Below are positions 8,277-12,845 of a stretch of DNA of 45,558 nt, one piece after another. Positions within the stretch are counted from its first letter, which is position 1. Each line of letters begins with the position of its first letter. The notes under the pieces were generated by a model. It was not told where the DNA came from, searched no databases, and worked only from the letters and a program-made list of their open reading frames with translations. The translations under genes were made by a program, and so were the position numbers. Source of the DNA: an uncultured Bacteroidota bacterium (lineage in GTDB: Bacteria > Bacteroidota > Bacteroidia > Flavobacteriales_F > PHOS-HE28); the NCBI GenBank assembly GCA_902825795.1, contig CADECG010000008.1, forward strand, positions 1-45,558. Direction: 5' to 3'.

Positions 8277-8283
8277 GTGGTTT

Positions 8284-8384
8284 GGGCGTGCCCCCTCGCA
8301 AAGCCTCGGGGTCCGGCTTTCCGCTGCAAGTCCGCACTCGTCGTTCCTCCTCGCTTGCGGGCTTTTCGCTTCAATCCCTCACGC
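8284..8384 (+). repeat. Structured intergenic repeat (GGGCGTG...CACGC element)
   Basis: The element is bounded by GGGCGTG (8284-8290) and CACGC (8380-8384), whose inner bases pair. It contains two related 19-mers: GGCTTTCCGCTGCAAGTCC at 8315-8333 and GGCTTTTCGCTTCAATCCC at 8360-8378. From memory, this framework (GGGCGT, then GGCTTTCCGCT.CAA, then a second CGCT.CAATCCCT.ACGC) recurs in intergenic regions of Flavobacteriales genomes. Its role is not known to me. It lies between the aldehyde dehydrogenase gene and the accessory operon. Confidence 0.6.
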
Positions 8385-8403
8385 GAAATCCAAGGGGCGG
8401 AAA

Positions 8404-8440
8404 TTGAACGACGAAATCGCTTCTGCGTCTCGTCGTTCAA
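8404..8440. other. 11-bp inverted repeat, possible terminator for the minus-strand operon
   Basis: TTGAACGACGA (8404-8414) pairs perfectly with TCGTCGTTCAA (8430-8440) around a 15-nt loop. It lies 35 bp beyond the stop of the minus-strand gene ending at 8475, and on that strand the hairpin is followed by TTTCCG, so it could end that transcript. It directly adjoins the structured repeat. Confidence 0.45.
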
Positions 8441-8474
8441 GGGCAATCCAGCGGGACGTGAGGGTATATCTACT

Positions 8475-9182
8475 TCACGGCACTGGGTCTCTTCTTCCTG
8501 AGAGTATGGCAACGAGATTGACAACTGCGGTTGTCGCTTCAACACACATCGCCGCATCTCTGAAGCTGGCAGTGCGGCGATGTTGGAGCGCCACGGCAAG
8601 CTTCAGCGCCGACCGCGCATGGCTGCGGATCTCTTCGTTGTTTCCTCCCTGTAGCTCGGTCGTGAAATAGGCGCTGAGCATCCGATTCGCATCTGTATCA
8701 CTTGGTGGAACCCCGTCTTCTGTTGGATGTCGTTCCGGAACGAACACTGCCTGCGCTACCGAAATGAGCACTTCCCTTCCGAATAAGCCGACAGCCTGGA
8801 ACTGCTCTTCGGTCGAAGCAGAGGCGAGCCAATCGCGTAGCTCACCGACCACACGATCAACGCGCGTCCAACCGGTTGGTAAGTATGGTTCAGCATGTCC
8901 TGTTCTAATGACGCTGAGCAAGGGCTCGATGAAGCGGTTCACGAATTCACGCCGCGATTGGTATGTTGACATGTCCCCATTCTTCCATCTCCCATACCAC
9001 TCCCAGAGGTCACCGTATGGGAGAGTGTTCGGTATCCCCTTTCTTCCGAGAGAGGCTGCTACTCTCGCGTAGAGCGCGCGATACCCGTCGTTGACATCAT
9101 TGATGGGGCGACCGCCGGTAGCTACGTCGATCATCATCGCTCGAATGCGATCGATGGATTGAAGTAGCTCGTCATTGTTCAT
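8475..9182 (-). CDS. Unknown protein coupled to AlbA_2/HATPase gene (candidate defence partner)
   Basis: The 235-residue soluble protein starts MNNDELLQSIDRIRAMMIDV. The ATG at 9182 overlaps the upstream stop as ATGA, so this start is well supported. The N-terminal half reads VATGGRPINDVNDGYRALY and NTLPYGDLWEWYGRWKNGDMSTYQSRREFV, a pattern I associate with uncharacterised proteins but cannot name. The C-terminal half is helical (RSALKLAVALQHRRTASFRDAAMCVEATTAVVNLVAIL), similar in style to the C-terminal helices of abortive-infection-like hypothetical proteins. There are no visible nuclease or NTPase motifs. Translational coupling with the AlbA_2 gene implies a joint function. A defence role is inference only. 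Confidence 0.7.
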   Translation of the reverse strand: MNNDELLQSIDRIRAMMIDVATGGRPINDVNDGYRALYARVAASLGRKGIPNTLPYGDLWEWYGRWKNGDMSTYQSRREFVNRFIEPLLSVIRTGHAEPYLPTGWTRVDRVVGELRDWLASASTEEQFQAVGLFGREVLISVAQAVFVPERHPTEDGVPPSDTDANRMLSAYFTTELQGGNNEEIRSHARSALKLAVALQHRRTASFRDAAMCVEATTAVVNLVAILSGRRDPVP

Positions 9183-10636
9183 CTCGCCCAACTGGGTATG
9201 TAGGAAGCGTTTCGCTTCGACACGCTTTCAGGATCACTAGGCACAATGGCACCGGCTTCCATCGCCTCCGTGATGTAGCGCGACGCCATTGGGTGGTTCT
9301 TCTCCGAAATGTTGAACCGTTTGCGCAACGAGGCGTTCGTCATCTCCTGGTTGTTCACGTAGAGCAAGCAGGCGTGCTGGTAGATGGCTCGGATACGATC
9401 TTCCTTGCGCATTCGTCCTGTGGGCGTTGGTGCATAAAGCGTCACCCGCATGTGATCGTCCTCGCGCTGAAACTTCGGTGCTGGGAGTTGGTGTTCTTCG
9501 ATCGCTTCGATGGCCAGGTCCACTCCGCTGCCGCGTTCTTCGCAGATGCGCATCCGTCGCATGAGCGAGGCCATGGCCTCATTGCGCGAGCGCGGGGCGG
9601 AATCGATGAAGCGCTCTGGGTCCACAAGTGGCCTGCCCGGATTGGTGATCTCGATACGGTCGGTGAACACTTCGATGATCACGCTGCTGCCAGTGAGTTC
9701 GAGGTCTTGGTGGATCAAGGCGTTCGCAACGAACTCGCGGATAGCGACCTCGGGATACAGCTTGCGTTCCTCGCGAAGCGCACTTCGGATCACCTCGTTC
9801 GGTGGTAAGAGGTCGTGTACGTATTTCACCAGGCCGGCGAAACCCGAAGCATAGCCTCGCGTTCCGATGATCTCCTTGCTTTCAGTACGTGAGCGTTTGA
9901 CACCGTTGTACACCACCAAGCGCACCATTTTCCGCTTGAGGGGTTCGAAGCGTGCTATGTCGCGTGCAAAGAGCAAGGCGCCGAGGTTGGTGATAGTCCA
10001 GCCGTTCGATCCCGTTTGCACTATGTTGTCTTGCTCCAGTGCTTGCAGAACCGCTTTGCGAGCTTCAGGTTGACGTGTTCCCTGTAACCGGAAATAGCTA
10101 TCGTGATCGAGGAGGTCGAAGACATCTTCATCCTTCAGGTCGTATAGAACGGGCCGTTCTTCGAACCGGTCTCCGGATGAGGTTTGAATGGCCCGTGTGA
10201 TCTCCTGTCGACTCATCTTCACGGTTTGCCCTGCCGACCGGATATAGCTGTACTCGACACCTTTCCCGCGCAAGTGCACCGGCCTCGCCGAATGTTCCGG
10301 GATCTTGATGAAGAGCACCGGCGCTCCGCGATGTTCGCTGATGGTATGGTCCAATTCCACAGGAGGTTCAACTCCATTCCGGGCTATCTGACCGAGACGT
10401 TGCACGACCTGTTCCATGTCCTCTCGGGACAAAGGAGCTGGTTCGCCTTCATTCGAAATACCGAAGGCCATGAAGCCTCCACCTTCCAAGTTGCTGAAGG
10501 CCGAGAGGTGCTGCGATAGCTTATCGCCGTTCTCGGAAAGGGCAGACTTCCAGTCCATGTCGTTCCGTTCACTCGGCACTGGAAACAGGCTGCGCTCCAA
10601 GGCGGCTAAGGCGTGGTGATGCCATACTGAGGCCAT
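9179..10636 (-). CDS. AlbA_2 (Schlafen-type) / RecG-like HATPase_c_4 protein with C-terminal winged helix
   Basis: This 485-residue protein has an N-terminal AlbA_2 domain (residues about 20-150): SERNDMDWKSALSENGD, then AFSNLEGGGFMAFGISNEG and SARPVHLRGKGVEYSYIRSAGQTV. The middle contains LGALLFARD and MVRLVVYNG. A GHKL-type ATP-binding segment HATPase_c_4 follows, with EVAIREFVANALIHQD (about 296-310), DRIEITNPGRPLVDPERF and a late CEERGSGVD. The last about 75 residues look like a winged helix (NQEMTNASLRKRFNISEKN). I chose the start at 10636 because the AlbA_2 fold needs the residues before the internal Met at 27. Such proteins are annotated as RecG-like or ATP-binding transcriptional regulators, and related domains occur in phage-defence loci. 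The stop overlaps the next gene by 4 bases. Confidence 0.85.
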   Translation of the reverse strand: MASVWHHHALAALERSLFPVPSERNDMDWKSALSENGDKLSQHLSAFSNLEGGGFMAFGISNEGEPAPLSREDMEQVVQRLGQIARNGVEPPVELDHTISEHRGAPVLFIKIPEHSARPVHLRGKGVEYSYIRSAGQTVKMSRQEITRAIQTSSGDRFEERPVLYDLKDEDVFDLLDHDSYFRLQGTRQPEARKAVLQALEQDNIVQTGSNGWTITNLGALLFARDIARFEPLKRKMVRLVVYNGVKRSRTESKEIIGTRGYASGFAGLVKYVHDLLPPNEVIRSALREERKLYPEVAIREFVANALIHQDLELTGSSVIIEVFTDRIEITNPGRPLVDPERFIDSAPRSRNEAMASLMRRMRICEERGSGVDLAIEAIEEHQLPAPKFQREDDHMRVTLYAPTPTGRMRKEDRIRAIYQHACLLYVNNQEMTNASLRKRFNISEKNHPMASRYITEAMEAGAIVPSDPESVSKRNASYIPSWAR

Positions 10637-10648
10637 GATCGGGCTTTG

Positions 10649-10867
10649 AGTTACATGTTCAATGCGCTGAAGGACAGGCGATAGAGCCGCATTGGTTGCC
10701 TTGTGACCAAAAATAGTTACATAAGACAGAGATGCATTGGAGCAGTTATCAACACAAATGCTATCCGACTACTCATTCCATTCAGGACTCCCAGTTACAT
10801 GCGCATCCGGCTGATAGACAGGCGGATGGCCGGAGGCGTAGAGTTCTGGGGAGGGACTAGTTACATG
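10649..10867. promoter_or_regulatory. Four AGTTACAT direct repeats upstream of the AlbA_2 operon
   Basis: AGTTACAT occurs at 10649-10656, 10715-10722, 10793-10800 and 10859-10866, the same way round each time, with start-to-start spacings of 66, 78 and 66 bp. Three of the four are followed by G. A partial copy (AGTTATCA) starts at 10743. The array fills the 5' region of the minus-strand AlbA_2 gene, the nearest copy being 13 bp from its ATG. It may be an operator array bound by the winged-helix protein of the operon, but that is inference. Confidence 0.6.
10708..10715 (-). promoter_or_regulatory. Possible -7 box for the AlbA_2 operon
   Basis: On the minus strand TATTTTTG matches the Bacteroidota -7 consensus TAnnTTTG exactly and abuts the second AGTTACAT repeat. 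No TTG is present at the usual -33 distance, which would fit a promoter needing an activator. The predicted transcript would have about a 65-nt leader. Confidence 0.4.
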
Positions 10868-10973
10868 ACCCCAAACTGTTGATAGGTCGGATTAGTGGTG
10901 AAGTGGTGGTGAACTGGTGGTGTTGTGGTGGCGAAGTGCCACGACGACTCGAGCATCGTCACTCCCGGAGGCA
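10868..10973 (+). other. Non-coding stretch with GGTG-rich low-complexity tract
   Basis: No gene is seen between the last AGTTACAT repeat and the truncated DUF2200 copy. From 10895 to 10933 the plus strand is a run of TGGTG units broken by short AA, AACT and TT spacers. Confidence 0.5.
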
Positions 10974-11062
10974 CCCAACTTTGAAGTCCAATGAAACCAG
11001 GAGCCAACAACCAACGCGTTTACCGTACGGCCTTCACGAGCGTCTATCCGGGCCATGTCTAA
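10974..11062 (+). pseudogene. Truncated 5' duplicate of the DUF2200 gene
   Basis: The ATG at 10991 opens a 23-codon frame starting MKPGANNQRVYRTAFTSVYP and closing with a TAA at 11060-11062. It is nearly identical to the first 20 residues of the intact DUF2200 protein at 12483 ([20 protein letters not shown]). Similarity extends upstream of the ATG (CCCAACTTTG versus CCCAACATTG), so this is a DNA duplication and not a chance match. It marks the right edge of the AlbA_2 module. Confidence 0.7.
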
Positions 11063-11082
11063 CCTTGTCGCAATACCGCATC

Positions 11083-11105
11083 ATGCCCCGCCTCATTGTC
11101 CACGG
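11083..11105 (+). repeat. MPRLIVHG leader element, copy 1
   Basis: The 23-mer beginning ATGCCCCGCCTCAT matches copy 2 at 12414-12436 at 22 of 23 positions. Here it opens a 20-codon frame whose TAA overlaps the ATG of the Crp-like gene as TAATG at 11143-11147. In both places the element sits 60 to 70 bp in front of a gene start. Confidence 0.55.
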
Positions 11106-11144
11106 CTTCACAATCTCGCTCGCCGTCGCCAAGGCACAGTCCTA

Positions 11145-11732
11145 ATGGCCGATCCACAACAAGCCCTTTGCGCGCATTTCGATCGCTATCTGGCCTTGGA
11201 CGAGGCCGAGCGAACGGCCTTGAAAGAGCGCAGCCGCGTGCGGCGGTTGAAGAAGCGCGGCTTCATCCTGCAGGAGGGCGAGGTATGCCGGTCCTACACC
11301 TATGTGGTGGAAGGTTGCATGCGCATGTACGAGGTGGACGAGAAAGGGGTGGAGCACAACCTGCAGTTCGCCCAGGAGAACGAGTGGATCGTGGATATCG
11401 GAAGCTTCCACACGGAGAAGCCGAGCAGCCTCTTCATCGAGGCACTGGAGGCGTGTGTGGTCGTGTGCATCGAACACGCCGACCTGCTTCATCTGTATAC
11501 CCAGCACCCCAAGTTCGACCGCAACTTCCGGGTGATCATCGAGGACCTGTTCGTGGAACTGCAACAGCGGCTGCTTCGCCGCAATGCCTCCAACGCGGAA
11601 CAGCGGTACGCGCATTTCGTTCAGCACCATCCGGGCCTAGCGGCCCGTGTGCCCAATGTGCATGTCGCCTCCTACCTCGGCGTAACGCCGGAGTTCCTCA
11701 GCCGCCTGCGGGCGAAGACGAGCAAGCGCTGA
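11145..11732 (+). CDS. Crp/Fnr family transcriptional regulator
   Basis: A 195-residue protein. An N-terminal cyclic-nucleotide-binding-like beta roll covers about residues 20-120, with RRLKKRGFILQEGEVCRSYTYVVEGCMRMYEVDEKGVEHNLQF. This is followed by the dimerisation helix FRVIIEDLFVELQQRLLRRN and a short winged helix AARVPNVHVASYLGVTPEFLSRLRAK. The recognition helix T-PE-FLSRLR is typical of Bacteroidota Crp-like proteins. No FNR-type N-terminal cysteine cluster is present, so oxygen sensing by an iron-sulphur cluster is unlikely. The start is fixed by the TAATG junction with the small upstream frame. An FNR-type palindrome follows immediately after the stop. Confidence 0.85.
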   Translation: MADPQQALCAHFDRYLALDEAERTALKERSRVRRLKKRGFILQEGEVCRSYTYVVEGCMRMYEVDEKGVEHNLQFAQENEWIVDIGSFHTEKPSSLFIEALEACVVVCIEHADLLHLYTQHPKFDRNFRVIIEDLFVELQQRLLRRNASNAEQRYAHFVQHHPGLAARVPNVHVASYLGVTPEFLSRLRAKTSKR

Positions 11733-12358: not shown

Positions 12359-12413
12359 TATTTGCGATCGCTCCAATTGAGGCACGTAGTTTTGGACGGT
12401 CAACACGTTCACC

Positions 12414-12436
12414 ATGCCCCGCCTCATCGTCCACGG
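12414..12436 (+). repeat. MPRLIVHG leader element, copy 2
   Basis: This copy matches copy 1 (11083-11105) at 22 of 23 bases and likewise opens a short frame (MPRLIVHGRDLGRCC...), here stopping at 12480, two bases before the DUF2200 ATG. It may be a leader peptide or simply a mobile piece of DNA. Confidence 0.55.
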
Positions 12437-12482
12437 TCGTGATCTCGGTCGCTGTTGTGATGGTCCCCAACATTGCTGAACG

Positions 12483-12845
12483 ATGAAACCCGGAGCCAAC
12501 AACGAACGCGTCTACCGCATGGCCTTCGCGAGTGTCTACCCGCACTACGTGACCAAGGTGGAAAAGAAGGGCCGCACGAAGGAGGAGTTGCACACCGTGA
12601 TCCGCTGGTTGACCGGCTACACCGAGAAGGGGCTCGCCAAAGTGATCGCCGACAAGACCGACTTCGAGACCTTCTTCGCAAAGGCGCCCAAATTGCACCC
12701 GAACGTGGGCATGATCACCGGTGTGATCTGCGGTTACCGCGTGGAGGACATCGAGGACCCGCTGATGCAAAAGCTCCGCTACCTGGACAAGCTGGTGGAT
12801 GAACTGGCCAAGGGCAGGGCCATGGAGAAGATCCTGAGGAAGTAG
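12483..12845 (+). CDS. DUF2200 family protein
   Basis: A 120-residue cytoplasmic protein with the DUF2200 pattern from end to end: [38 protein letters not shown], then [48 protein letters not shown]. Family length is about 115 to 120, so it is complete. Function is unknown. A truncated copy of its 5' end lies 1.5 kb upstream. Three bases separate its stop from the next lipoprotein gene, suggesting an operon of three. Confidence 0.9.

Follow-up and report, generated by a model that had tools for sequence, protein, structure and literature searches.

The two genes analysed here are best explained as a Schlafen-type defence gene that moves horizontally and regulates itself, followed by an exchangeable downstream slot. 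In this genome the slot is occupied by an AbiJ-like abortive-infection protein, which combines an N-terminal domain associated with Abi_C and a divergent C-terminal domain that may be HEPN-like. We put the probability of this reading at roughly 0.55. The genes lie on a 45,558-nucleotide stretch of DNA from an uncultured Bacteroidota bacterium, hereafter the window.

Results

The gene pair and its flanks

The upstream gene encodes a protein with AlbA_2, HATPase and winged-helix parts (the AlbA_2 protein), and the downstream gene a shorter protein (the partner; Table 1). As had been described in the initial annotation, the two genes overlap: the stop codon TGA of the AlbA_2 gene (9181-9179) and the start codon ATG of the partner (9182-9180) share the letters ATGA. 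The partner reading frame can be opened from a TTG (8475-9191, minus strand; 238 aa), and the ATG at 9182 gives 235 aa. Both reading frames are real genes, because they have homologues of up to 80% (AlbA_2) and 64% (partner) identity. Each is present in one copy in this genome. The pair has a GC3 of 0.58/0.67, lower than the 0.81-0.89 of the genes on either side.

The earlier description of the flanks was also correct, with the repeat element and the truncated DUF2200 duplicate both in place. The repeat has more copies in the genome (75-89% identity; C36, C113 and others), and a 90% copy is also found near the 80%-identical AlbA_2 gene of a congener (L147, 9833-9937); it is possible that the repeat is linked to movement of the cargo. 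On the other side, two 27-nt pieces (11079-11105 and 12410-12436), 93% identical to each other, resemble the start of another gene (MPRLIVHGFTIS), and a longer version of this piece is present in L097 (11234-11908); the pieces look like a relic of a second gene at the site. A scan for promoters and terminators gave nothing beyond chance level.

Table 1. Positions in the window of the gene pair, its domains, the upstream motif copies and the flanking elements
Feature	Position	Strand	Basis
Genomic repeat element, ~105 nt, hotspot edge	8282-8387	.	Homology to most congeners ends here
Partner gene, AbiJ-like, 235 aa	8475-9182	-	ORF; start overlaps AlbA_2 stop (ATGA)
Partner C-terminal domain, residues 102-231	8490-8879	-	Common to AbiJ_NTD3 proteins; all-helical model, suggested to be HEPN-like
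Partner N-terminal domain, residues 3-99	8886-9176	-	L003 match; hhalign probability 95.5 (E 1.5e-8) to N-terminal domain of Abi_C proteins
AlbA_2/HATPase/winged-helix gene, 485 aa	9179-10636	-	ORF and homologues
C-terminal winged-helix region, ~residues 424-472	9221-9367	-	Weak Fic-like_C match; conserved MTN-x-[SL]-LR-x-RF block; helix table
HATPase_c_4 domain, residues 316-400	9437-9691	-	Pfam 7.6e-25
AlbA_2 (Schlafen core) domain, residues 23-141	10214-10570	-	Pfam 4.9e-13
Motif copy 1, ATGTAACT on coding strand	10649-10656	-	-20 from AlbA_2 start
Motif copy 2	10715-10722	-	-86
Motif copy 3	10793-10800	-	-164
Motif copy 4	10859-10866	-	-230
DUF2200 gene fragment, other insertion edge	10974-11050	+	82% to 12466-12542

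The AlbA_2 protein and its relatives

Judged by its domains, the AlbA_2 protein appears to belong to the Schlafen-core/GHKL/winged-helix group. The domains named in the initial annotation were recovered well above threshold in Pfam (SLFN_AlbA_2, 50.1 bits, cut-off 25.3; HATPase_c_4, 87.2 bits, cut-off 26). The putative C-terminal winged helix, where the Fic-like_C match of Pfam is sub-threshold, carries a block that is conserved in the alignment and the recognition stretch SEKNHPMASRYI. The E-x4-[ED]-[FW]-K stretch, a putative acidic active site, reads ERNDMDWK, i.e. E-x4-D, in this protein. Residues 281-379 also have a weak, distant similarity to an uncharacterised protein of known structure (PDB 3lmm; E 0.003).

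Homologues of the AlbA_2 protein are 35-49% identical to it phylum-wide and on plasmids, and 80% identical in one congener. Type I R-M operons house or adjoin the homologues in L054, L057, L064, L066, L076 and L077, HsdR-type genes adjoin those in L060, L063 and L148, and other methyltransferases those in L069, L072, L078 and L080, while the homologue in L079 is part of a DUF499/DUF1156/PLD anti-phage locus. Schlafen RNases fused to a minimal histidine kinase and a wHTH have been described as effectors that back up BREX and related systems (PMC12839542), and a preprint cited there reportedly finds that anti-phage defence is mediated by bacterial Schlafens. The AlbA_2 protein has the domain order of this fusion (COG2865 type; AlbA_2, HATPase_c_4 and a putative winged helix), and its homologues likewise reside in operons of type I R-M and of other methyltransferases. 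In contrast to the described fusion, the gene for it is a solo one located in a hotspot, preceded by its own motif array and followed by a slot that holds an AbiJ-like gene.

A motif array upstream of the AlbA_2 gene accompanies one type of recognition helix

The stretch singled out in the initial annotation ends at 10867 and so includes a motif array that was absent from the description. The window contains four copies of the motif AGTTACAT (coding strand: ATGTAACT), against a mean of 0.37 and a maximum of 2 in shuffles, and all four stand at 10649-10866, upstream of the AlbA_2 gene, with spacings of 66, 78 and 66. Just upstream of the array, an 11-bp unit (GTGGTGAAGTG) stands in four imperfect tandem copies (10895-10938).

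The motif recurs in front of AlbA_2 homologues. Four ATGTAAC[TC] copies precede the gene in L147 (spacings 78, 55 and 66), in surrounding DNA that has diverged. In L058 five ATGTRAC copies are found upstream, with TATGTGACT repeated at an 11-bp period within two clusters; L078 has two copies, and L053, L055 and L056 carry the motif at -40/-42. The motif having been defined in the window, the only clean prediction is L149, which was fetched after the motif and the predicted helix type had been noted and has three ATGTRAC copies, at -91, -80 and -14. Altogether, 37 upstream regions contained 21 sense matches to ATGTRAC (shuffles: mean 1.5, maximum 6, n=500); measured against the background rate, 16 were observed in 34 upstream regions where 0.8 were expected.

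Presence of the motif goes together with the type of recognition helix. It was found upstream of 7 of 9 genes whose product has the helix N[HY][PS][MI][AV]SR and of 1 of 28 with other helices (Fisher 2.6e-5; 3.7e-4 after removal of near-duplicates), p-values that are optimistic because the class was set after the first carriers had been seen and the proteins share a common ancestry. The single carrier outside the type (L078) has the helix NYPAASR, close to the consensus. Two genes within the type, L079 and L154, lack the motif; one of the two starts 2 nt behind an upstream gene and the other overlaps such a gene by 4 nt, and they would need no promoter of their own. The ATGTAACT/ATGTRAC array looks like a control switch of the AlbA_2 gene.

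ATGTRA also reads as a start codon plus a stop codon, and it could act in RNA, as part of the mRNA leader. A DNA site is favoured over such a role because the C after ATGTRA is constant. We also considered a type III toxin-antitoxin arrangement, in which an array of RNA repeats precedes an RNase, and rejected it: what is shared is limited to the 8-nt motifs, which in L058 form 11-bp repeats, and there was no Rfam match.

The partner shares both its domains with AbiJ-type proteins

The partner had been described as a protein of unknown type and of no recognisable family. The latter is true of single-model searches, as no curated model in Pfam, NCBIfam or PADLOC matched it over its cut-off, but not of domain comparison, by which both of its domains are found again in abortive-infection architectures of the AbiJ type; the partner is, thus, no longer of unknown type. 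In the AbiJ family, AbiJ-NTD1 to 5 are followed by a HEPN domain (Abi_C, PF14355; PMC3710099), and the partner has the same two-domain layout. Its N-terminal domain, which is not among the Pfam AbiJ_NTD models, also precedes Abi_C in L003/L106, L104, L105, L107 and L108 (hhalign). Its C-terminal domain is ~57-65% identical to the C-terminus of AbiJ_NTD3 proteins (E of their N-termini 3.6e-53 and 3e-52), and a homologue of the partner (L007) has a further N-terminal domain, which recurs in the Abi_C protein L109 (42% identity, E 6e-27). Given this sharing with AbiJ_NTD3 and Abi_C proteins, the C-terminal domain of the partner therefore replaces the HEPN domain of AbiJ (PMC3710099).

The C-terminal domain is not Abi_C itself, since it has no profile similarity to it (hhalign prob 0.1-0.3) and no PF14355 match. 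The HEPN motif Rx4-6H (R-x4-6-H) is absent from its alignments; instead, R186 and H201 are invariant in the broad alignment, and a QHxRTAxFR block is present in closer homologues. The structural model of the domain is confident and single-domain (pLDDT 88, pTM 0.83), and the most probable PDB matches to it in Foldseek were HEPN proteins, at E-values that are not significant (2hsb, prob 0.93, E 0.45; 1wol, prob 0.77, E 1.0). Because these E-values are 0.45 and higher, the HEPN-like nature of the domain is a suggestion. A BFVD fold search with it gave nothing useful, and no viral copies of the partner were found. A match of the partner to GAP1-C (E 0.0012) was set aside, as its 18.7 bits fall below the cut-off of 27.9 and the domain sharing points elsewhere. 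Unannotated homologues from Planctomycetia (L005, 64%) and Eremiobacterota (L006, 62%) are also full-length, at 233-234 aa, but are encoded without an AlbA_2 neighbour.

The pair lies in a variable spot that often carries defence genes

In genomes of the same genus, homology to the window ends right after the aldehyde dehydrogenase gene (~8387), and the sequence beyond differs per genome. Positions 8277-11143 of the window form a genus-wide variable spot with different cargo in each congener, often defence or toxin-antitoxin genes. Such cargo was seen at 7 of the 11 congener sites: Abi_C (L092), a ThsB-type TIR and PIN (L094), type II R-M (C5 methyltransferase and, by sub-threshold match, an ApaLI-like enzyme) with PDC-S22 (L095), an N6 methyltransferase (L097), another AlbA_2 with Fic (L098), a type VI retron reverse transcriptase (L101) and Fic (L103). 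At the remaining 4 nothing was recognisable. On the upstream side of the dehydrogenase gene, used as a control, 1 of 10 proteins matched PADLOC (PDC-S13); because the cargo was selected visually from lists of open reading frames, this is a comparison and not a statistic. One congener (G435; L096) has two copies of the aldehyde dehydrogenase gene (366-1379 and 9957-11549), ~9 kb apart and flanking other genes.

Defence genes are also found around homologues of the partner: IetAS adjoins L015, an SpbK-like TIR adjoins L021 and a QatC-like gene lies near L016, while HsdS adjoins L003, a homologue of the N-terminal domain. The suggestion that the locus serves defence is, thus, supported by context (the hotspot cargo of congeners, the R-M operons around AlbA_2 homologues and the defence genes around partner homologues), but not in its original form of a two-gene module.

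The pairing is local and the downstream slot changes

The pair is not conserved together in any other locus examined, which argues against a module. None of the ~39 loci of AlbA_2 homologues elsewhere (20 from the phylum, 9 from plasmids, 10 from the class and genus) has an adjacent partner gene, and none of the ~21 partner loci elsewhere, some of which are on short contigs, has an adjacent AlbA_2 gene. The partner homologue in L009 has an AlbA_2-type gene of another kind (30%) at a distance of ~5.7 kb. Among the loci examined, the AlbA_2-partner pairing is unique to this genome, and is a local combination. Unrelated phyla contain homologues of the partner, as do plasmids of Rhizobium, Bosea, Rhodococcus, Clavibacter, Haliscomenobacter and others; the distribution is patchy, with carriers making up 1 of 45 genomes in the order, 3 of 395 in the phylum and 2 of 347 in another phylum.

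The clearest example is the congener G398 (L147), in which the 80%-identical AlbA_2 gene is followed, 24 nt on, by a DUF2130 gene (2.4e-88); DNA homology spans positions 9186-10725 of the window and ends at the AlbA_2 stop codon. The DUF2130 gene (5617-7044 of L147) lies directly downstream of AlbA_2. DUF2130 may be a defence effector.

Discussion

We propose the following working of the locus. At rest, the winged helix of the AlbA_2 protein would sit on the ATGTRAC copies before its own gene, and the operon would be kept low. A signal of infection, probably sensed by the GHKL ATPase and/or the N-terminal domain of the partner, would free the AlbA_2 protein. The Schlafen core and the AbiJ-like protein would then, as two separate effectors with presumed RNase or toxin activity, shut down the infected cell and so block the phage. 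The described homologues of the Schlafen core are of the RNase type (PMC12839542). What the analysis shows is the order of the genes, their domains, the motif array and how it accompanies the helix type, the position in a hotspot and the exchange of the slot in a congener; the binder of the motif, the signal, the RNase or toxin activity and the phage protection are inferred.

The two genes might instead be independent solo defence genes that came to stand side by side in a hotspot and are co-transcribed without any functional link, the partner not being regulated by the AlbA_2 protein. This would agree with the hotspot nature of the site, with the solitary state of partner homologues at every other locus and with the AlbA_2 homologues that everywhere else lack the partner. 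However, the ATGA overlap implies translational coupling, the sole motif array stands before both genes, and the AlbA_2 gene of the congener has a different, close downstream gene, so that the slot itself may matter; we consider an accidental juxtaposition unlikely, though worth keeping in mind. It is improbable that the AlbA_2/HATPase/wHTH protein is a transcriptional regulator only, with no RNase activity, which silences a toxic AbiJ-like protein in a regulator-effector or toxin-antitoxin-like pair. AlbA_2 genes mostly occur without the partner and so are no dedicated antitoxin, and this architecture is treated as a Schlafen-family RNase effector (PMC12839542), even though the winged helix, the motif array, the co-occurrence of motif and helix type, and the effector-type architecture of the partner would all suit such a regulator. 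A role outside defence, as a mobile stress or housekeeping regulator next to an unrelated partner, is very improbable in view of the hotspot cargo, the R-M operon context, the defence neighbours and the patchy distribution described above; it would be consistent with there being no PADLOC model for the partner.

Beyond the self-regulated defence gene with an exchangeable slot that we favour for this locus, we tentatively advance a wider, twofold proposal, of which we are doubtful as a whole. Solo bacterial Schlafens of one helix type may form self-regulated defence operons. Their winged helix would recognise arrays of ATGTRAC, in which the copies often lie multiples of ~11 bp apart, and would govern an exchangeable downstream slot, AbiJ-like here and DUF2130 in the congener. 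Jointly with this, the C-terminal domain of the partner may be a HEPN-like effector not described before, whose active site differs (R186/H201) and which is interchangeable with the Abi_C HEPN domain after N-terminal domains of at least three kinds.

The pairing first noticed at this locus is, thus, a local combination rather than a conserved system. The analysis adds a domain for which there is no model and which, in AbiJ-type proteins, stands in place of the Abi_C HEPN domain; because the domain is unmodelled, catalogues of defence genes now miss the partner family. For the large and poorly understood bacterial Schlafen-type group, the analysis offers a candidate control element, in the form of a short DNA motif paired with a type of recognition helix.
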